From contig NC_018025.1 of NCBI RefSeq assembly GCF_000266945.1, forward strand, positions 2,418,001 to 2,482,000: a stretch of 64,000 nucleotides of DNA. Direction: 5' to 3'. Positions 21,465 to 34,283 of this stretch are shown here, piece by piece. Source of the stretch: Desulfomonile tiedjei DSM 6799. GTDB lineage: Bacteria > Desulfobacterota > Desulfomonilia > Desulfomonilales > Desulfomonilaceae. The position numbers and the translations under genes are program-made. Under the pieces are notes generated by a model, which saw only the letters and a list, made by a program, of their open reading frames with translations, did no database searches and was not told the origin of the DNA. Each line of letters opens with the position of its first letter. The first letter of the stretch is position 1.

Positions 21465-23090
21465 TTATTCTTTGAAAAATCGCTCAAGGGAGAATCCTTT
21501 GGGGGGACAAGCGCGTTCGCACCTCCGGCAAGCCACTCCATTGCATAACGATTGATCCAGTATCAAGACCGGAGGATCTGAGCCTTCGAGATGCCGAATT
21601 GCCTTCTCCGGGCATGACGCCACGCATTCGAAACACGCGGTACACTCTTCGAACTGGACCTGGACTATCTGTCCCACGTCCGGAACAGTTACCAATCCGA
21701 GACGACCGAGATCGTCGATATCGCGGCGGACTGTGCGGATTACTTCCGGAGATCCTTCGATAGTGAGCAGCTCAGGGAAGCCGTACCTCCTGAGAAACGC
21801 CTGATATTGGGAGAAAGGCATTCCTTCGGTCCAAAAAGAGAGTTCCAGAATGTATATTTTCTCAAAGACTTTGGATGCAGCAAACATGCAGTGAGTCTGG
21901 CGAAGGTTCTTCGCGAGGTCACTCATCATGTCTAACTTTTTCGGGTCGAGTACAAGGTCGCGCGCCATAGCGAGGGACGTGTTTCCCACCTGGTAGATGG
22001 TTTTGACTCTGGGAGGAATCATGCCGAGCCGCTGTGCTTTCAGGGCATCCACGTATGTTCCGGAAGCACCGGACATATACGCTGTCACCACATCTCCCAT
22101 GTCGATGCCTGCCTCATGGCAGAGCGTTACATGCCCGGCTCGTACCGATCCTATGGCTTTCCCTGCTTCTTTGAGATCTTCTTCAGTAAAATTGATGTCC
22201 GATGAAAGATGAAATTCGGCATCGAGAGTATTTATACGGGGCAGACGAACGAGATTGGCTTCCAAACCTTGACTTACGATGGCAACCGTTCCTGTTCCGG
22301 TTATCCCGACAGGCTCGATCTCTCCCGCTTCCCGGACATTTCCGGTCTCCAGATTGATCAGCGGTCCCATGATAGACAACATGTCTTGATCCAGGACAAT
22401 CAACCTGTGGAGATGATCGACTCTGTTCAAGTCGGAAATGGCTCCAGGCATGGCCAGCATGCCACAGGTAATCTGTTGACCTTCCAGAGCAGGTCCTGCG
22501 GCAGTGGAGCCCGTGATTACCTGTCCTTGATGGAACAGTGCCATTTCAGCATTTGTCCCGTAATCTGTCGTAAGAGAGGTCTCGTCCCGCTCCAGCATAC
22601 CGGTTTGGATCATCATGGCCAGAGCGTCCGCGCCAATCTCGTGACGGACAGCAGGAGGAATAAGCACTTCTGCCTCGGCAGGAATCATAAGGCCGCGAAT
22701 CTGAGAAGCTGTGAGAACCGTGGCATCACGCTTGGGCGGGACGACTCCGAGCGCCTCCAGCTTTCTTTTGCCGGCAAACGCCAGATCCCGGATTTCTATC
22801 CTCTGAAATAAAGAAAGCTGAATCGGATTTCCGCAGACAGCGAGACGCACCACGTCATCCAGAGGAACTCTGAGCCTTCCCAGAACCTTGTTGACCGCTT
22901 CCATCATCACATTGCCGGCAATCTCAACGCTCATCTCCAGAGCAAAATGTAGATGATCTATGACATTGGCTCCGGGCAGAGGATGCCGAGTAGTAATAGC
23001 GGTGGATATGATTTCGCGGGAGTTCAGGTCGATGGCATGAGCTCTGAAGCCGCTGGTTCCGAGATCCATTGCAATCGCCAACCGAGTCAT
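21465..23090 (-). CDS. ramA: RamA-like ATP-dependent reductive activase of corrinoid proteins
   Basis: A 541-residue protein that matches the methanogen RamA layout from end to end: an ASKHA-type N-terminal region (IAMDLGTSGFRAHAIDL; AVCGNPIQLSLFQ; TDYGTNAEMALF; AYMSGASGTYVDA) and a C-terminal two-cluster ferredoxin domain (CTACFECVASCP and CNGVACRRCERACP, near 470-530). In methanogens RamA reduces inactive Co(II) corrinoid to Co(I) at the cost of ATP. Here the likely client is the MtaC-type protein about 5 kb away. AAGGA stands before the ATG. The longer bacterial RACE activases usually have an N-terminal 2Fe-2S domain, which is absent here. Confidence 0.92.
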   Translation of the reverse strand: MTRLAIAMDLGTSGFRAHAIDLNSREIISTAITTRHPLPGANVIDHLHFALEMSVEIAGNVMMEAVNKVLGRLRVPLDDVVRLAVCGNPIQLSLFQRIEIRDLAFAGKRKLEALGVVPPKRDATVLTASQIRGLMIPAEAEVLIPPAVRHEIGADALAMMIQTGMLERDETSLTTDYGTNAEMALFHQGQVITGSTAAGPALEGQQITCGMLAMPGAISDLNRVDHLHRLIVLDQDMLSIMGPLINLETGNVREAGEIEPVGITGTGTVAIVSQGLEANLVRLPRINTLDAEFHLSSDINFTEEDLKEAGKAIGSVRAGHVTLCHEAGIDMGDVVTAYMSGASGTYVDALKAQRLGMIPPRVKTIYQVGNTSLAMARDLVLDPKKLDMMSDLAKNLRQTHCMFAASKVFEKIYILELSFWTEGMPFSQYQAFLRRYGFPELLTIEGSPEVIRTVRRDIDDLGRLGLVTVPDVGQIVQVQFEECTACFECVASCPEKAIRHLEGSDPPVLILDQSLCNGVACRRCERACPPKGFSLERFFKE

Positions 23091-23285: not shown

Positions 23286-23507
23286 ATGAAAGCTTGCACT
23301 CGCTGTGGTGTCTGGCATACAGACGCTGAAAAACGTGCCGGACATTACCTGTCATGCACAGAAGTGAAACAGTATTGGTCTGATCTTAAACGCCTCCACA
23401 TGGAGGCCACGGGCCATCTCGCAATGATCAAAATCAGTAAAGACGGCCGCGTTTTATGCATAAAGTGCGGCCAAGAACTTACTGAGGATCCGTTGAAAAC
23501 TTACTGA
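23286..23507 (+). CDS. Small double-CxxC zinc-ribbon-like protein
   Basis: A 73-residue protein with CTRC near the N-terminus, a middle cysteine, and CIKC near residue 59, suggesting one or two metal sites. It is otherwise charged, with no signal peptide. The ribosome site is weak. It converges on, and overlaps by 7 bases, the 191-residue gene on the minus strand. The function is unknown. Confidence 0.55.
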   Translation: MKACTRCGVWHTDAEKRAGHYLSCTEVKQYWSDLKRLHMEATGHLAMIKISKDGRVLCIKCGQELTEDPLKTY

Positions 23508-24076
23508 CCGTCGAAACCGAACAAGACGGTACCCGTGCCCCATTCATCCTTTTCATCGAAGTACCTGTTCTTCAGAAATACGTCTCCTGCGGTGGAAGGA
23601 AAGCAGAATATGTAGTCTCCGAATTCTTCAAGACCTGGCAAGCATTCTTCGGCACCAAGAGCAGGCAATTCAAAGCAGCACTTCTTTGCGACTATGTCTC
23701 CGGGAAAATCGACTCTGTCCTTGTAGATCACGAAATTTTTATGAAGAAAGAATGCATTCGGTTGTTTTTGCAGGTCCTCGATTCGTGATGGGTCACGGAC
23801 CTCCTCGCCTACGATTTCATCATCTTTTTTCAGAAGCATGTGGGACTGACAGCCCCACTCGAACTCCATTGTCGTGATGGCAAGGAAGACATGCTTGGAA
23901 CGGAGCACGTCCCGGATTCCGCTGTTGTAGCACAAGCCCATGCCCATGAAAGCTTTCTTTTCCGCCTCGGTTTCGATGTCCAGCAGTTGGAAACGATCTG
24001 CGTGTTCCAGCTCAAACGCTGCGAGTATTCCCTTTATGGCTTGGAGACAGTCCAGGATCGGGTCACGAACAGGCAT
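23501..24076 (-). CDS. Unknown protein downstream of the CobW-type GTPase
   Basis: A 191-residue soluble protein with no signal peptide. It has several cysteines (LDCLQ, GLCYN, EWGCQ, KKCCFEL, EECLPG, IFCFPS) but no standard Fe-S spacing. I do not recognise the family. It begins 14 bp after the GTPase gene stops, so the two are almost surely cotranscribed. Placed between that GTPase and the RamA-like activase, it may help handle metal or corrinoid, which is inference from position only. Confidence 0.7.
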   Translation of the reverse strand: MPVRDPILDCLQAIKGILAAFELEHADRFQLLDIETEAEKKAFMGMGLCYNSGIRDVLRSKHVFLAITTMEFEWGCQSHMLLKKDDEIVGEEVRDPSRIEDLQKQPNAFFLHKNFVIYKDRVDFPGDIVAKKCCFELPALGAEECLPGLEEFGDYIFCFPSTAGDVFLKNRYFDEKDEWGTGTVLFGFDGQ

Positions 24077-24090
24077 TTATCCCCCTGACT

Positions 24091-25059
24091 TCATTCTTCC
24101 CGACACTCGTCCAGTGCAGCGTCCATTGCCTGGGGCTTCATTTCCTGGCCGATTATGGACAGCGCACTGTATTCCGCTATAGGTGCGGCTTCAACGTGCA
24201 CCTCGCCGGAAGCAAGCTCTACTTTTATCCAGTCCTCAGGAGTTTGGAAAATTCCTTTGGCACGAACCACTTTTCCATAGCCGCCCGATCTCAAAGCCTC
24301 AAAGAAAGATACCAGACAAGGTCGAGAAAATGAGTCGGAGTATTTTCGTCCAAAGGATTCAAATTGATCTGCCAGCCCGTGATCGTGACCGTGAGCACCT
24401 TCCGAGACAAACGTTCCCTCAAATTCTTGCAGAAACTCTGTTACCTCATCCCTGTCGCCGGCACTTCCCAGAAGTTTTTTCAAGACAGAATCCTGAAGCC
24501 GAGCGAAGCGAGTGGGGTACACAATCGCATTAGGATTGATCTCTTTTATAGAACTTACCAGAAGGTCAAGCATCGCCGGCTTTACTCGATCCATCTTGTT
24601 GAGAAGCACTGCTCTACTGCGTCGGATCTGGTTTTCCATGAAATGCCGATGAGACTTGATGAAAGACAAGAACTCCGACGCGTCCAACAGGTGAATAAGA
24701 TTAAGATCTGAATACAAAGGCCGCATGTCTTCAGATTCGAGTATCTGCATGATCTGGGATATGGTGGCTACGCCGGTGGGTTCGACAATAATCCTGTCCG
24801 GAGCGAAACGGTGGCACAAATCCAGGAGTTGACGTCGAAAATCGCTGGCTATAGTGCAGCAGATGCACCCGGAAGGCAATTCTATGACTTCGGCCACCTG
24901 AGCACCATGACCGGACAACACAAGACCGTCAATTCCGACTTCTCCGAATTCATTGACGATAATGACCACTTTTTCGCTCTGGGGCGGATTCTCCATCATA
25001 TATCGTATGAAGGTAGTTTTCCCGGCTCCCAGAAAACCGTACACAACGTTCACGATCAT
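24091..25059 (-). CDS. CobW/COG0523 G3E GTPase (metallochaperone-type)
   Basis: A 322-residue G3E GTPase. Walker A GFLGAGKTT is near 8-16, the metal-binding C-x-C-C motif (PSGCICC) near 63-69, the EPTG switch near 96, the NKMD guanine-specificity motif near 155, and a His-rich patch (GAHGHDHG) near 220. The C-terminal CobW_C domain covers about 235-310. Family members deliver or manage zinc, cobalt or nickel. Next to a corrinoid methyltransferase cluster, cobalt or corrinoid delivery is attractive. AGAGG precedes the ATG, and the partner gene follows by 14 bp. Confidence 0.88.
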   Translation of the reverse strand: MIVNVVYGFLGAGKTTFIRYMMENPPQSEKVVIIVNEFGEVGIDGLVLSGHGAQVAEVIELPSGCICCTIASDFRRQLLDLCHRFAPDRIIVEPTGVATISQIMQILESEDMRPLYSDLNLIHLLDASEFLSFIKSHRHFMENQIRRSRAVLLNKMDRVKPAMLDLLVSSIKEINPNAIVYPTRFARLQDSVLKKLLGSAGDRDEVTEFLQEFEGTFVSEGAHGHDHGLADQFESFGRKYSDSFSRPCLVSFFEALRSGGYGKVVRAKGIFQTPEDWIKVELASGEVHVEAAPIAEYSALSIIGQEMKPQAMDAALDECREE

Positions 25060-25545: not shown

Positions 25546-26076
25546 TTAGAACGGAAACGCTCCTGCGGTCATCATGTAGAAGGCTGGTACCCAGAGGCCA
25601 AACACTACCCACACGATCAATGACCAGGCAAGGACAGGAGTAGGGAATTTCCCGTAAGCGTTAAGCCAAACCATGAACGTCAAGGCAGCGTAACCCGCAC
25701 ACGCGAACGCCAGATAGTTGCTCTTCACTATCAACAGCTTGCCGTCTTCCAGAACCGGTCCCCCGGTGAAGAAGAGGATCATGTAAATGACGGACACAAG
25801 AGCAGTGTAAAGACTCACGTTACCGACGGATCTCAGATCGTCCAGGCCGGTGAGCAAGGCGTATGCTACGGAGCAATAGAAGATCCCGTGTGCGAAGAGG
25901 AGTCCTGCCACAAAAGGGTCTTTGAACACGGTGGCTTGAATTATTGCCCCCAGAATTGTAACAGACCCTACAAAGCCGGTGATCGCTCCAGTACCTTTGG
26001 GCTCTCCTTTTCCAAGGAAAAATATCGCCACCGCCAACCACATTGCACCAATGGCTATGAGCACTGGCATTGCCAT
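25546..26076 (-). CDS. AmiS/UreI-like small-solute channel
   Basis: A 176-residue membrane protein with six or seven hydrophobic helices, the size and helix pattern of the AmiS/UreI family (proton-gated urea channel of Helicobacter, amide channel of Rhodococcus and mycobacteria). Useful segments are ITGFVGSVTILGAI, GLLFAHGIFYCSVAYALLTGLDDL and the C-terminal VPAFYMMTAGAFPF. The ATG at 26076 has GGGGG six bases upstream, so the longer frame from 26121 is not used. No urease or amidase gene is near. The next gene upstream is mtaB, and a terminator lies between. It may pass methanol or another small neutral substrate, which is inference. Confidence 0.72.
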   Translation of the reverse strand: MAMPVLIAIGAMWLAVAIFFLGKGEPKGTGAITGFVGSVTILGAIIQATVFKDPFVAGLLFAHGIFYCSVAYALLTGLDDLRSVGNVSLYTALVSVIYMILFFTGGPVLEDGKLLIVKSNYLAFACAGYAALTFMVWLNAYGKFPTPVLAWSLIVWVVFGLWVPAFYMMTAGAFPF

Positions 26077-26285
26077 TCGCTTCCCCCTTTCGTGAGTGGA
26101 AGGATTGTTTCCAGGTCCCATGAATGCCGTCCATCATCGATGGGATCGTCTTCCATCTATGTGGCCCGATGTCTTACGTATAGCAGATGTGTGTCCACTC
26201 CTTTTCTGCAGAGGTCAACGCGTGTGCGTCCGGATTCTCAGCTAGATCGCGGTTTTACAGCAAACAACCTCACATAGCGGTTTGG

Positions 26286-26408: not shown

Positions 26409-27776
26409 TTACAGACCGTACGCTGCAGGGACAAATCCCTTAACTTTTGAATACTTCTTGAGGCACATGTCAATGAAGTCTCCTTCCTTATCGGGAAGAG
26501 CTTGCATGTCCTTCATGTACCCCTGGAGCATCTCTTTTTCATACGCAGTCAGCTTGAGCATCGGATCGCCCAACATGAGTTCCCCGCATTTCATTGCTGC
26601 TGCTTTGGCTCGGCTATACAGGCTGGCATTGTTGTCCACCAGCGCTTTACCTATTTGCCATGCATTGTCAGGGCTCAGCATAAAGGCGTGAGGGCCGCGA
26701 TACTTGTCAGAGTTCACGAGGCACGCCTGGAACTCTTTCTGGTATCCCAGATCGATGGCCGCGTTCATTGCCGCAACGTCATAACCGAGTATCTCCGCGA
26801 AAACTGCGGTGGTAGTGCCGCCGAACATGTCGTGGTATTCCACGGCTTCATTGGACCATACGTCGGTTACCGCCGCAATGACATTGCCACAGAGGTCTGC
26901 ATGCGCACAGGCACTGGTCTTTCCTTCGCAAGAGATGGGCACTCCTGTTACGGACTTGATGATGGGATCTTCGTACGCACAGTCCTTGGTCGGCCCCGTC
27001 GCTCCGCATTCATACGCCACGAGGGTCCGGCTGGCGCAAATTGCCCGTGACAGAGCAGCCAGAGTGTGCGGCACATCTTTGGACAGATAACCACCTGCCA
27101 TAAACATGGCTGTGTTTGCCTCGGAGCAGTTCGTGTCACCACCGGGAATGCAGTTGTGCTTCTTGGCGATGGCTACGATCTGTGTCCACATCCATTCCAT
27201 GTCTCTTCCGCCCAACACCGCCTGGCCGAACAGGAGGCCTGCAATATCGTTTCGGATGATGGCATGGTCGAAGACTTCTTTGCCGCCCATGGATTCAATG
27301 GATACGATGTCAGCGTACTTGGCGCATTCCTCGAAGGTCTCGAGAACCTCTCTCGTATAATCGGAATCTCGCATGTTCACCATGTCAGGCTTGCGTAAGT
27401 CTGCAGGAGTGGCCCTATATGCAGCTTTCAGCCCGTACTTCTGCAGGTATTCATCCATCTGCCTTGCGGTTTGGGCAGCGATTTCACCTCCCCACTTGGG
27501 GTTGTGAGTCATCTGGAAAATATGCTCGTTTTCTATCTGGAGTTGTGGATGTCCCACGATAACACAGCGCTCCAGTGCGTCGCCATTGGCTCTTTCGTAC
27601 TCGCGCAGCAATGTCTTCATTGTCTTTTCGCTGCCGGGCCGTGGATGAGGAACGACCTCAGGAACAACATGACCGCCGCCCAATACGATGCCTCGTTTGG
27701 TCGTGACCGGCTTTTTCGCTGTCCCGAATATCATTTCGTCTGCGCTCTTATAGGCCATTTCACTGCTCAAATTCAT
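26409..27776 (-). CDS. mtaB: Methanol:corrinoid protein methyltransferase MtaB
   Basis: A 455-residue protein that follows Methanosarcina MtaB over its full length. The zinc ligands are all present: Glu in SIESMGGKEVFD (near 162), Cys in GGDTNCSEANTAMF (near 217) and Cys in TKDCAYEDP (near 264). The start motif MAYKSADEMIFG and the end KGFVPAAYGL also fit. MtaB splits the C-O bond of methanol and moves the methyl group to Co(I) of MtaC. A strong AAGGAGGAG site precedes the ATG. It follows mtaC by 51 bp and ends at a terminator. Related TIM-barrel methyltransferases act on other methyl donors, but the zinc-site match supports methanol. Confidence 0.93.
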   Translation of the reverse strand: MNLSSEMAYKSADEMIFGTAKKPVTTKRGIVLGGGHVVPEVVPHPRPGSEKTMKTLLREYERANGDALERCVIVGHPQLQIENEHIFQMTHNPKWGGEIAAQTARQMDEYLQKYGLKAAYRATPADLRKPDMVNMRDSDYTREVLETFEECAKYADIVSIESMGGKEVFDHAIIRNDIAGLLFGQAVLGGRDMEWMWTQIVAIAKKHNCIPGGDTNCSEANTAMFMAGGYLSKDVPHTLAALSRAICASRTLVAYECGATGPTKDCAYEDPIIKSVTGVPISCEGKTSACAHADLCGNVIAAVTDVWSNEAVEYHDMFGGTTTAVFAEILGYDVAAMNAAIDLGYQKEFQACLVNSDKYRGPHAFMLSPDNAWQIGKALVDNNASLYSRAKAAAMKCGELMLGDPMLKLTAYEKEMLQGYMKDMQALPDKEGDFIDMCLKKYSKVKGFVPAAYGL

Positions 27777-27827: not shown

Positions 27828-28577
27828 TTAGCCGTTCCACTTACCTCTCATCGCTTGCCAGTTGTCGCCGGAGAGAGCATCTTCGGCCATTCCGGGAGCC
27901 TGATTGGCCTCCTTGCCCCAGACACCCAGCTCGAAGCTCGTGACGTATTCCTCGCTGACTGCCCCTCCGCCGCACACGAAAGGAATAGCCAGTCCCAGTC
28001 TTTTCAACTGAGCAGCAATCTTCGGAAACGCAGTCATGGTGGTAGTCATGAGTGCAGTGCCGGTGACCATGACCGGATTGTGCGTTCTGCAGGCTTCAAC
28101 TACCTTGTCCACCGGGACATCCGCACCAAGATTGATAACATCAAAACCATTCGCATTCAGGAGCGCATTCACAATGACCTGTCCGATATCGTGAATATCT
28201 CCTTCTGCGGTATGGGTCACAACCTTGGCTTTCTTATCCATGGATTTACCCATTTTCTCTTCACAAAGAGCAATGCCTGCGTTCATGGCATCTGAAGCCA
28301 ATATGACCTGGGGCAGGAAGTAAACCCCTTCGTCCCACAGTCGGCTCACTTCATTCATACCAGGGATGAGTCCTTCGTTGATGACTTCCATGGGCGACTT
28401 TTTCTGCAGCACTTCTTTAGTCAATACTGCCGCCTGGTCTTCGTCCCCTTTCACAACGGCATCAGCCACCTTCTGGAGAAGCTCGTCCTTGGCCACTTTG
28501 CGTGCCGATTGACGTGCTACTTCGATGTTGAGGTCGTACCGTGTGAAAATGTTTGCATAGTCCGTCAAGTACTTCAT
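27828..28577 (-). CDS. mtaC: Methanol corrinoid protein MtaC
   Basis: A 249-residue cobalamin-binding protein. A helical cap covers about 25-115 and a Rossmann B12 domain about 118-240. The base-off motif is EGDIHDIG (His near 130), with GTALMTTTM and FVCGGGAV completing the corrinoid pocket just as in Methanosarcina MtaC. It carries the methyl group between MtaB and the MtaA-type enzyme. GAGGAGG precedes the ATG. Gene order on the strand is mtaA, mtaC, mtaB with gaps of 62 and 51 bp, so one transcript is likely. Oxidised Co(II) would be rescued by the RamA-like activase. Confidence 0.94.
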   Translation of the reverse strand: MKYLTDYANIFTRYDLNIEVARQSARKVAKDELLQKVADAVVKGDEDQAAVLTKEVLQKKSPMEVINEGLIPGMNEVSRLWDEGVYFLPQVILASDAMNAGIALCEEKMGKSMDKKAKVVTHTAEGDIHDIGQVIVNALLNANGFDVINLGADVPVDKVVEACRTHNPVMVTGTALMTTTMTAFPKIAAQLKRLGLAIPFVCGGGAVSEEYVTSFELGVWGKEANQAPGMAEDALSGDNWQAMRGKWNG

Positions 28578-29724: not shown

Positions 29725-30456
29725 TTATTGACCTATCAATCCCTCCTTGAGCAAAAACAGAGGCAACTCCAGGCCACTGACCGGGCCAACCATAACTTGC
29801 CAGCCGGTCACCTGCTTGATTTGACCTGCGAGATGCCTTGCCAGACCGGGTATCACGAGGCTTCTATGGTTCGCCATTGAGCCTACCGCCGTCTCCGTTA
29901 TCACCTTGAGGATCTCAAAGGGGGTGAATCTCTTTTCTTCCACTGCATTGTCCACGCTATATCCTTTGGTGTCGCTCACGAGGATGAACACGCTCATTCC
30001 GCAACTATCCAGGACATTCTCCAGGAGGTGCACCGTCTCACGGAAATTGCACGTTACGAGTACGGGAGAAGACGCGACGGGCAAACGGACGCTGATGAGG
30101 CCCGGAGATAAGCTCTCCATCATCACATTGAAAGGTATGGCCGGAGGAACGAAGTTCATGAGATTTCTCAAGACCGATGCGGTCTCGTCATTCAGCTCCG
30201 GACATCGCCAACTCGCCGGATTGCCTTTTATCAGGGCTTCCGCAAATGCCCGGCAGGATGAGTATCCGCACTCGGTACAATCCACATCCGGCAGATACTC
30301 GAGCAGACTCTCCGTTGTCAGCGGATAAATATCGGCAAATTCTTGTTCGATCACCCAGAACACTCCCGAATTACTCTGTGCCAATAGAGGACACCCATCC
30401 CCAGAGGGCGCGAGATCGATGGGCGTACGGACAGACCCGCAGTTGTTCCGAATCAA
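29725..30456 (-). CDS. Shortened corrinoid/iron-sulfur protein (AcsC/CdhE-like)
   Basis: A 243-residue protein. Its N-terminal part has the CFeSP 4Fe-4S motif (DCTECGYSSCRAFAEAL, then WRCPEL; Cys near 57, 60, 65 and 82). The C-terminal part (VIPGLARHLAGQIKQVTGWQVMVGPVSGLELPLFL) matches the corrinoid-contacting end of AcsC/CdhE. The central TIM barrel of the roughly 440-residue parent is mostly missing. No acetyl-CoA synthase genes are near. It is first in the mtaACB run, 74 bp before mtaA, so it may pass electrons to, or take methyl groups from, the corrinoid system. The start is uncertain: TTG at 30456 follows an in-frame stop. Confidence 0.75.
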   Translation of the reverse strand: MIRNNCGSVRTPIDLAPSGDGCPLLAQSNSGVFWVIEQEFADIYPLTTESLLEYLPDVDCTECGYSSCRAFAEALIKGNPASWRCPELNDETASVLRNLMNFVPPAIPFNVMMESLSPGLISVRLPVASSPVLVTCNFRETVHLLENVLDSCGMSVFILVSDTKGYSVDNAVEEKRFTPFEILKVITETAVGSMANHRSLVIPGLARHLAGQIKQVTGWQVMVGPVSGLELPLFLLKEGLIGQ

Positions 30457-30670: not shown

Positions 30671-30686
30671 AGCAAATACTGTACCA
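30671..30686 (-). promoter_or_regulatory. Sigma-54 promoter for the methanol methyltransferase operon
   Basis: Read on the minus strand the site is TGGTACAGTATTTGCT: -24 TGGTAC (one mismatch to TGGCAC) and -12 TTGCT, with exact ten-base GG-GC spacing. It points at the AcsC-like/mtaA/mtaC/mtaB genes and leaves a leader of about 200 bases. The sigma-54 activator gene lies just upstream. Possible activator dyads upstream are AGTGTCACACT near 30696 and TGTTGGTT/AACCAACA (30766-30773, 30802-30809). Confidence 0.6.
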
Positions 30687-30962: not shown

Positions 30963-32360
30963 TCATTTGAACTCTGCCTTATCCAGCCCAAATTGCTTCA
31001 TTTTGCGCAAAACGGTTCGAACGTCCACCTGAGCATCGGCCGCCGTAAGGCTCACTGTTCCCTTATTCTTCTTCAGCAGGTGTCTAAAATATCGTTCTTC
31101 CATGCGAGCCAGGGTCTCTTCTCTGAGTGCCTTTAAGGGGAGGGTAGGATCGAAAGGGAGACACAGCTCGTTGTCATTACTATGGTCGACTTGAGTGCCT
31201 GCAAGGGAGAACGGGATTTCGTCGATCAAATCGTCTTGCGCCATAATCATAGCGCGTTCAAGTACATTTTCCAGTTCGCGCACATTGCCGGGCCACGGAT
31301 GCTTCATCAAGCTGAACATTCCCCGGTGCGACAGGGTCAATTGGGATTTATTGTTATTAATGGCAAGTTTCTCGAGGAAGTGAGCCGCGAGAAGAGGTAT
31401 GTCATCCAAACGCTCTCTCAATGGCGGCAGGTGAATGGGAACCACATTGAGCCTGTAATACAGATCGAGGCGAAATCGATTTGCAGTCAATTCCTGAGAA
31501 AGGTCTTTATTGGTGGCGGCGATAATTCTGAAATTAAGTGATATCAGTCTATTACCGCCGAGTCGTTCAATCTTTTTGTCCTGAATCGTCCGTAGCAATT
31601 TGCTTTGCAGAGAATAGGGCATGTCACCTATTTCATCCAGGAACAAAGTGCCATGGTTGGCCTGTTCGAGTTTGCCCTGTTTTCGGCGTTCCGCACCTGT
31701 AAACGCTCCGCGCTCGTAGCCGAACAGCTCGCTTTCGAGAAGGGTCTCCGGGACTGACGCACAGTTTATGGCGACAAAGGGACCGCTTTTCCGAAGGCTA
31801 TGAAAGTGTATAGCCCTGGCTACCAGATCCTTGCCGGTGCCTGTTTCTCCTGTGATGAGCACTGAGGAGTCCATGTTGGACAACGATTCGATCAGATTGA
31901 AAATGCTCTGCATCCTCGGATGCTTGCCGACGAGATTTTCGAACCGGTATCTTTGCTGGAGATTCGCCCTTAAGGCTACTACTTCACGTTTGAGCTGCCT
32001 TTCTTCAAAAATCCTGCTGAGGACCAGAAGCAGTTTCTCGGGGACAACCGGTTTTTCGAGAAAATCGCTGGCCCCGGATTTCAGTGCGTCTACGGCAGTG
32101 CCGATCGAGCCGTATGCAGTGATAACAACGGAGAGCGTCTCCGGGTTGATCTCCACGGCTCGTTTGAGAAAATCAAGGCCATCCATCCCGGGGAGGATCA
32201 TGTCGATAATGAGAAGATCGTAATCGATCTCGCCAAGTAATGTCAGTGCTTCCTCGGCACTCGCTACATAATCCGTGGTGTATCCCTCGGACCCGAGTAT
32301 CCGAGCAAGGGTCTTGGCGGAATTGATATCATCGTCAACGATGAGCAATCGGTACTGCAT
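30963..32360 (-). CDS. NtrC-family sigma-54 response regulator
   Basis: A 465-residue three-domain activator. Receiver domain 1-120 with phospho-Asp in [13 protein letters not shown] (near 53) and switch Lys in [13 protein letters not shown]+ domain about 140-370 with Walker [15 protein letters not shown] loop and a standard Walker [14 protein letters not shown]-terminal Fis-type helix-turn-helix ([21 protein letters not shown]). GGTGAG precedes the ATG. It follows its kinase gene by 6 bp. Its position and the -24/-12 site beyond its end make the methanol methyltransferase genes the likely target. Confidence 0.95.
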
Positions 32361-32366
32361 AGAATC

Positions 32367-34283
32367 TCACCATATGGGTAAACAGATCATAGCCTTGGTC
32401 CCTCCGTTGGGACGACTCTCAAGGGTTACGGCTCCTCCGTGAACTCGGACGATATGATCCACCAGGGCCAGGCCCAGGCCCAACCCTCCTTCTTTTCTGG
32501 AATAAAAAGGTTTCATGACCTTTCTTATTTCTTCTTCTGCCAGGCCGGGCCCATCATCTTCAATCACAATCTGAGCAAATTCCAAACGCGGCTCCGGTCC
32601 GTGTCTGATCTTCAGCTTTCGGGTGAAAACCCACAGGTGGCCGTCACTGTTTATAGCTTCCATGGCATTCTTGATAATATTGTGGAAAGCCTGGTTCAGA
32701 AGAAACATATCTGCTCGTGTCATAGGCAAGTCAGGATCGAATGATGTCACGAGTTCCACTCTCGCGAGTTCCATCCATCCTTTAAATGAGTGAAGCGTAT
32801 TATTCAAGATGTCATTAATCGATTCATGACAAAGGCTTACGTCCTGTGTTCGAGTGTATTGGATAAATTCATTGATCATCCTGTTTATAAGCTCGACACG
32901 TTCTGTAATATTCTGAATGAGATCTTTCTTCTCACCTTCCTCAACATTATCCTGCCGCAACAAATGCAGAGCGTACACGAGGTTGTTCAGAGGATTTCTG
33001 ATCTGATGAGCTATTCCGGAAGCAAGCTCTGCAAGAAGAGCCATATTCCGGGAATGTTCTATTTCGTCAAGCAGGCGATCTTTGCTGAAAGATCTCTTAA
33101 AAGAATGAGAAGAAAACGATCTGCCGACGTGATCGATAATGAATCGCTGTGTTCTCTCCGCATCCCTTTTTTCCTTGGAAATAAGCTTAATCTGCCGTTC
33201 GAGATCTCCCATGAGAGAGATATGCTCAAGGAAGAGGCCTATCATGTTGAGGGCCGTCATGAGCAACCTGGTGTCCGCCGGCCGATTCTTAGTCTCTCTG
33301 AGCCCGAGAAAGCCCAGGCCTATAAGATCCCGGTGGTGCCGCAAAGCAAATTCCAGAACAGACTCTATTCCTTGCGATGTGAGATGTGCTTTCAGCACTA
33401 CAGGAAAACGGGGATGATCGGCCACAGATTGGATAGTAAAAGAATCTAGCTTCGACGAGTCGCCATAGAGGCGAATCTTACTTTCGAAGTAGTACCTCAA
33501 CCATGGATCTTCAATCCTTTTGGGATTGGATTTCGGAGACTGCAAGCTTACGCATTGTCCGGTATCCGGAAAATAAATGGCTCCCAAATTAGCTCTAAGA
33601 AGGGGTAAAATGGCTTCGAGCACACGGGTAAGAACGCCCTCAACATTGTAAGACTGTCCGATTACGTTGGCGATACTACTCAGGCAATATAATTCTTTGC
33701 TCAGATTCGCAGTAAGGGCCCGGAGAACCTCTGTCACTTTCTTTTCTTCATTCAGGGCATTCTGAAGTTGTGCAAGACTCCGATCCATCAACAAAATGGT
33801 AACATCTTTGCTGAAATTACTTAATTCCTGCCTGATAGCCAGGTCTTGATCGGATGAGATAAACGTAATCCCGCTGAACTCGATGTTCAGCGTCCCGAAC
33901 CAACGATGCGGCAAATCCAGGTAATAACAAAACTGGGACTTTAGAACGAAAGAGGGTCGTATTGCGTGTCCGGCACGACACGGACGGGGATGATTATCGT
34001 CAGGAATATCCGTTTCGACGTTCCATCTGCCCTGTTGTCGCGTGAGTCTTAGTCGAAGAATTCCCCGATTATTACTATTGTCTCGAACCAGAACAATGAG
34101 ACATTGTGCTCCAAATCGATCTCCCAACTGTGTCAAGACCCGGCAGGAATACTTTTCCAAACGGCTTTCCGCCTCTCCTTCTAGATCTCTGTACATGTCT
34201 TCGGCGATTGACGAAGATGAAGATTCCTGTTCCGTAAAAGGACTCAAACCTAAAAGATCGTATTCTTCCATAGCGGTAGGCAA
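32367..34283 (-). CDS. Soluble sensor histidine kinase, NtrB-like partner
   Basis: A 638-residue kinase without membrane helices. The N-terminal 180 residues are an unrecognised sensory region, about 195-355 look like a GAF domain, and HisKA follows with the phospho-His in ASGIAHQIRNPLNN (near 425). The HATPase domain has NIIKNAMEAI, DDGPGLAEEEI and GGLGLGLALVDHIV. TTG at 34283 or the ATG four codons later may be the start. It is 6 bp before the NtrC-like gene. A cytoplasmic signal, perhaps corrinoid, redox or methyl status, is likely. Confidence 0.9.
   Translation of the reverse strand: MPTAMEEYDLLGLSPFTEQESSSSSIAEDMYRDLEGEAESRLEKYSCRVLTQLGDRFGAQCLIVLVRDNSNNRGILRLRLTRQQGRWNVETDIPDDNHPRPCRAGHAIRPSFVLKSQFCYYLDLPHRWFGTLNIEFSGITFISSDQDLAIRQELSNFSKDVTILLMDRSLAQLQNALNEEKKVTEVLRALTANLSKELYCLSSIANVIGQSYNVEGVLTRVLEAILPLLRANLGAIYFPDTGQCVSLQSPKSNPKRIEDPWLRYYFESKIRLYGDSSKLDSFTIQSVADHPRFPVVLKAHLTSQGIESVLEFALRHHRDLIGLGFLGLRETKNRPADTRLLMTALNMIGLFLEHISLMGDLERQIKLISKEKRDAERTQRFIIDHVGRSFSSHSFKRSFSKDRLLDEIEHSRNMALLAELASGIAHQIRNPLNNLVYALHLLRQDNVEEGEKKDLIQNITERVELINRMINEFIQYTRTQDVSLCHESINDILNNTLHSFKGWMELARVELVTSFDPDLPMTRADMFLLNQAFHNIIKNAMEAINSDGHLWVFTRKLKIRHGPEPRLEFAQIVIEDDGPGLAEEEIRKVMKPFYSRKEGGLGLGLALVDHIVRVHGGAVTLESRPNGGTKAMICLPIW

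Follow-up and report, generated by a model that had tools for sequence, protein, structure and literature searches.

HgcA, the mercury-methylating enzyme, uses the corrinoid domain of CFeSP without the CFeSP small subunit. MtaA-type enzymes normally transfer methyl groups to a thiol, and MtaA is not known to carry out a corrinoid-to-corrinoid transfer. CFeSP has a threonine, Thr374, on the alpha side of its cobalt, seemingly excluded as a ligand (PMC4934906). By alignment this residue corresponds to HgcA Cys93, a predicted cobalt ligand; Thr60 and Thr66 hydrogen-bond the cobamide in the HgcA/CFeSP domain, and in CFeSP the Fe-S cluster plays a part in reductive activation (PMC7305189). The methyl acceptor of MtaA in acetogens is tetrahydrofolate (PMC13391211, PMC5770442). 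The methanol mtaABC cluster of Moorella is described as flanked by only a mutase-like gene and a hypothetical gene, and its MtaA has a mass of 29.7 kDa (PMC13391211). Finally, CFeSP is the proposed methyl donor of MesB, a core methionine synthase (PMC7857596).

The gene described here lies in the window, the whole 64-kb stretch of DNA analysed, on the chromosome of Desulfomonile tiedjei (genome G000; 6,500,104 bases, with a small second contig). The overall reading presented below is a tentative one: a one-subunit corrinoid/Fe-S protein, from a distinct clade of the CFeSP-gamma/HgcA domain, that is expressed with and serves a methanol:corrinoid methyltransferase.

Operon and Promoter-Like Site

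The genes surrounding this small protein are given in their order on the minus strand.

32367..34283, minus strand: sensor histidine kinase (domain matches, conserved neighbourhood)
30963..32360, minus strand: NtrC/AtoC-type sigma54 response regulator, conserved beside the small-protein gene
30671..30686, minus strand: sigma54-type promoter-like site TGGTAC-N5-TTGCT, the sole perfect match in the 64-kb window (0.02 expected)
29725..30354, minus strand: minimal corrinoid/Fe-S protein gene, 209 aa, GTG start at 30354; PF04060 and C-terminal PF03599
28640..29650, minus strand: MtaA-like UroD-superfamily methyltransferase (MtaA/CmuA subfamily), above the TIGR01463 cut-off and below that of the methanogen MtaA equivalog
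27828..28577, minus strand: MtaC-like corrinoid protein (domain and family matches)
26409..27776, minus strand: MtaB methanol:corrinoid methyltransferase (PF12176, 704 bits)
25546..26121, minus strand: AmiS/UreI-family membrane protein (domain match; conserved in the cluster)
24091..25059, minus strand: CobW-family GTPase (domain match; conserved in the cluster)
23501..24076, minus strand: conserved 191-aa protein (U191) with no Pfam or NCBIfam match
21465..23090, minus strand: RamA-type corrinoid reductive activase (TIGR04270, 771 bits, cut-off 500)

The first-pass annotation had placed the small protein at the head of a methyltransferase operon. This placement is borne out: its gene is the first of the mta operon and lies about 320 bp downstream of the perfect −24/−12 site. 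Similar sites, agreeing at 10-12 of 12 positions, precede the orthologues as well. From sequence, the gene appears to head a sigma54 operon with mtaA-mtaC-mtaB-(AmiS)-(CobW)-unknown-ramA. Genes for MtaB, MtaC, MtaA (UroD-type, 336 aa) and an activase, those that make up an MtaABC-RamA operon, are all present, and RamA has Fer4-type 4Fe-4S matches of its own. The open-licence literature searched yielded no culture data on growth on methanol or methanol conversion by D. tiedjei. At least seven genomes (G000, G005, G006, G016, G304, G307, G454) carry U191 in their mta cluster, among them G304, which has no small corrinoid protein.

Start Codon and Domain Architecture

The open reading frame had initially been drawn from 29725 to 30456. 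It contains a real gene, but its first 34 codons, a TTG-initiated extension, are not part of it. The long TTG start at 30456 was rejected because these upstream codons show no conservation and relatives carry in-frame stops or unrelated sequence in their place. All relatives start at [MVA][IV]EQEF (VIEQEF, MIEQEF or AVEQEF); the DNA 5' of this conserved start cannot be aligned among them, and two have an in-frame stop there.

The protein joins the CFeSP Fe-S motif to the C-terminal corrinoid region of CFeSP in a single chain, as first proposed. Residues from about 14 to 66 constitute a CFeSP/RnfB-type Fe-S domain (PF04060, E 5e-11), and the second match is to positions 277-378 of 387 in PF03599 (CdhD), the C-terminal part of that family (E 6e-16). 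A phmmer comparison with the CFeSP gamma subunit 2h9a_A aligns the protein gaplessly to residues 320-433, with residues 6-56 matched separately. Against the CFeSP gamma profile, residues 83-203 align with positions 325-445, and when profiles were compared, with ten C-terminal domains of CFeSP on the other side, the E-value was 1.7e-27 over 119 columns. Between about residues 66 and 83 there is no TIM barrel; the Fe-S and corrinoid domains are connected by the short linker PPAIPFNVMMES, and the chain ends at residue 209.

The Fe-S cysteines C26, C29, C34 and C51 are invariant in the seven aligned relatives and present in the eighth (G454). T101, N103, T107, G131, N136, P169 and G170 are invariant too. 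AlphaFold models built from 2-sequence alignments have pLDDT values of 43 and 34, too low to be usable. The gene very probably encodes a real corrinoid/Fe-S protein, one predicted from its sequence to bind both a cobamide and a cluster. Its conserved cobamide contacts and cluster site suggest that it is probably complete and self-contained as a single subunit. Most probably it carries either methyl groups or electrons, as a protein so far uncharacterised.

A Distinct Clade and the Residue Beneath Cobalt

The corrinoid domain was aligned and placed in a tree with others from Desulfobacterota, 65 domains in all: 24 from CFeSP, 8 from HgcA, 8 from the small protein and 25 from another short family. 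A single branch sets off each of the four groups from the rest (supports 99/98, 100/94, 96/97 and 99/100), in a tree of only 123 columns with long branches that separates the four clades without fixing their branching order. The small-protein clade (96/97) falls outside that of CFeSP. This tree rules out that the small protein arose recently as a shortened copy of the CFeSP encoded in the same genome (G000:C1:283952). The first-pass description of a missing TIM barrel is accurate in that the 2h9a_A residues between the two matches are absent; "missing", however, suggests a deletion derivative, and the corrinoid domain forms a separate deep clade.

The position that aligns gaplessly with CFeSP Thr374 differs from clade to clade. 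It is Thr in 23 of 24 CFeSP sequences, Asn in all 8 members of the small-protein clade (Asn136 here) and Met in all 25 of the other short family; neither Asn nor Met played a part in sorting the sequences, whereas the Cys in 8 of 8 HgcA rows is a circular count, since these rows were picked by their Cys motif. The HgcA cap-helix motif NVWCA is replaced by SVDNA or SLDNA throughout the small-protein clade. T101 and T107, each conserved in 8 of 8, are equated with HgcA Thr60 and Thr66 by way of the motif T-x-N-[FY]-x-x-[TS], the ND132 sequence itself standing outside the alignment, and P169-G170 is kept.

This is a conserved and apparently undescribed clade of a known corrinoid domain, coupled to methanol methyltransferase genes; a limited search of the open-licence literature found no description of the short corrinoid/Fe-S form. 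The series Thr, Cys, Asn and Met beneath the cobalt is a natural test set for lower axial tuning of cobalamin chemistry, that of the HgcA Cys included.

The small protein was also considered as an HgcA and rejected, having neither the cap-helix Cys nor a C-terminal transmembrane domain, nor an hgcB in its operon. The genome's real hgcA-hgcB pair is at L122:6772-8139, where a 339-aa HgcA with NVWCA is followed by a dicluster ferredoxin. The Met clade carries an invariant Cys (GPVC), and at its loci (L074, L080, L081, L088, L094 and others) the same neighbours recur: a protein with a receiver domain, GlgC and an alpha-ribazole phosphatase of the CobC type.

Distribution and Co-occurrence with MtaB

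The small protein or its alignment, together with MtaB, was searched for in 459 Desulfobacterota genomes comprising 42 from the window genome's class, a sample of 395 from the phylum and 55 from the class to which G307 belongs. Eight of these have the Asn clade (G000, G003, G005, G006, G011, G016, G307, G454), and 9 have MtaB (G000, G003, G005, G006, G016, G307, G454, G304, G308). Seven of the 8 Asn-clade genomes encode MtaB; in the eighth, G011, the contig ends inside the same operon. The co-occurrence, 7 of the 8 genomes compared with 9 among all 459, has a Fisher p of 3.5e-13 in a test that ignores shared ancestry. Outside the Desulfomonile class, both Asn-clade genomes have MtaB, which is found in 4 of 417 genomes there (p 7e-5, again ignoring shared ancestry). 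Scans of viral contigs found no relatives of the small protein, and a plasmid search with it returned only weak CFeSP and RnfB-type matches. An additional scan of genome contigs used exact peptides, which reach close relatives only.

The mta operon with the small protein is conserved in six Desulfomonilaceae genomes. Besides G000, the cluster is complete in G005 and G006 and kept in G016, where MtaC was not called separately in gene picking; it is kept up to a contig end within MtaB in G003 and after MtaA in G011 (L037). The informative cases are G307 and G454, which belong to the same family but to different genera: their close relatives have neither the small protein nor MtaB, and the small-protein gene is unlinked to mta in both. 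In G454 it lies between the dihydrolipoamide dehydrogenase and lipoyl synthase genes. In both genomes the mta cluster runs directly into acsE-acsD-acsC, and a complete CFeSP lies beside mta.

Conservation of the operon in six genomes and co-occurrence with MtaB where the genes are unlinked uphold the tie to methanol methyltransferases that was originally proposed, and make a functional link to methanol methyl transfer likely. The coupling is not one of indispensability, as two of the seven MtaB-bearing genomes have the gene unlinked and G304 and G308 have MtaB and RamA but no small protein.

Several features of G307 and G454 stand beside these counts. At L107/L123 and L138, the contiguity of mta with acsE-acsD-acsC extends to NuoE/NuoF-like genes and links methanol use to the Wood-Ljungdahl CFeSP. 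A perfect sigma54-type site lies immediately upstream of mtaB in G454 (L138:8931-8946). In G307 (L068:1649-6356), the small-protein gene sits within an arsenic-type run of arsR, an ArsM-like methyltransferase, LMWPc, the small protein, rhodanese and an HdrD-like gene.

Possible Roles: Methyl Carrier, Redox Helper or Cobamide Handler

That the small protein acts specifically as a methyl carrier is possible, and is the likeliest of the roles considered. The C-terminal domain would hold a base-off cobamide with its lower face over Asn136, and the [4Fe-4S] domain would keep the cobalt at, or return it to, Co(I), like the gamma-subunit cluster in CFeSP. The open upper face could then dock a TIM-barrel partner, most likely MtaA of the UroD superfamily. 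Methyl groups from methanol would pass through MtaB and MtaC to the small protein, as second corrinoid carrier, and on to the CFeSP/AcsE branch of the Wood-Ljungdahl pathway, if the direction is as proposed. This role is favoured because RamA, encoded in the same operon, already covers reactivation. MesB, with CFeSP as its proposed methyl donor, is a precedent. Counting against the carrier role, the usual acceptor of MtaA-type enzymes is a thiol, G304 and G308 do without the small protein, and the gene is outside the mta cluster in G307 and G454, two genomes that also have a complete CFeSP beside mta.

The first-pass annotation had offered an electron donor for corrinoid reactivation as an option, and in its fullest form this is a redox accessory whose Fe-S domain would pass electrons of low potential to RamA/MtaC or to an MtaA-bound corrinoid, with the corrinoid-like domain as a docking or corrinoid-gripping surface. 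Such a reactivation helper would fit the invariant Fe-S ligands, the sharing of an operon with ramA and the redox neighbours in G307 and G454 (HdrD-like, rhodanese, thioredoxin, dihydrolipoamide dehydrogenase). The proposal is nevertheless weakened, and seems rather unlikely: the operon's RamA-type activase is full and has its own cluster motifs, and G304 and G308 retain MtaB and RamA alone. The core methanol cycle therefore does not need the small protein, and there is no compelling case for electron donation as its sole role. Moreover, fully conserved cobamide-contact positions and Asn136 would be unnecessary for a pure electron relay.

The other initial proposal, a methyl acceptor that replaces coenzyme M and feeds the Wood-Ljungdahl pathway, gains indirect support from the mta-acsE-acsD-acsC contiguity in G307 and G454 and from the ComB search, which found no match in the D. 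tiedjei genome. The missing match falls short of proof that D. tiedjei lacks coenzyme M; set against it is a ComA (phosphosulfolactate synthase) family gene at G000:C1:5533552-5534298 (L141:9501-10346), beside an MmgE/PrpD gene. An ordinary folate (THF) acceptor is possible as well, as the genome encodes three MtrH-type proteins, AcsE and several pterin-binding proteins. The boldest version is unlikely: that the proteins with Asn beneath cobalt form a fourth functional class within the CFeSP/HgcA domain family and, in bacteria that lack coenzyme M, accept methyl groups from a UroD-type MtaA. If true, methanol methyl groups would travel corrinoid-to-corrinoid into the Wood-Ljungdahl pathway with no free thiol or folate intermediate.

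Cobamide handling, in which the small protein would store or repair base-off cobamide, supply MtaC/MtaB with it or act as the operon's sensor of cobamide state, is more doubtful still. A single predicted cobamide-binding domain with no catalytic TIM barrel suits that task, as do the first place in the operon, a neighbouring two-component system and a CobW-type gene. The related Met-clade family adjoins a receiver protein, GlgC and CobC; this, however, is a different clade, CobW homologues are also chaperones for other metals, and loading gives the conserved Fe-S site no obvious purpose. HgcA-like methylation of a metal or metalloid, with methanol methyl groups used only indirectly, is very improbable despite the kinship of the corrinoid domains and the arsR, ArsM-like and LMWPc/ArsC-like genes of G307, given the exchange of the cap-helix Cys for Asn in 8 of 8, the lack of a transmembrane domain, and an mta operon context in 6 of 8 genomes against an arsenic context in one.

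The minimal methyl carrier is the preferred reading. As a dedicated corrinoid/Fe-S protein encoded in the operon, the small protein is a tangible candidate for the step missing from methanol methyl hand-over in those sulfate reducers whose MtaA is UroD-type, like that of methanogens.

Comparison with Known Systems

The gamma subunit of CFeSP (AcsC/CdhE; NF003195, acetyl-CoA decarbonylase/synthase complex subunit gamma) shares with the small protein an N-terminal four-Cys Fe-S domain, a C-terminal corrinoid domain, the contact Thr residues and the PG motif. The small protein differs in having no TIM barrel, an Asn in place of Thr374, a clade of its own and an operon with no small-subunit (AcsD) gene, and it scores 127 bits against the NF003195 equivalog, whose cut-off is 306. 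HgcA and the HgcAB-like fusion (NF040863, NF043039) resemble it in using the same corrinoid domain as a stand-alone unit paired with an Fe-S carrier. Their models give 65 and 86 bits, with cut-offs of 275 and 285; unlike HgcA, the small protein has neither the cap-helix Cys nor a membrane domain, and its Fe-S domain is N-terminal and of the PF04060 type.

Among the MtaABC systems of methanogens and acetogens, the likeness lies in MtaB, MtaC and the RamA-type activase. MtaA is UroD-type as in methanogens, and the 29.7-kDa Moorella enzyme is unlike it. The short CdhD-C family of other Desulfobacterota, the Met clade, is alike in build, with about 210-250 aa and the same two-part layout. It differs from the small protein in the Met at the cobalt position, in an Fe-S motif kept in just 7 of 25 members and in neighbours that are not mta genes.
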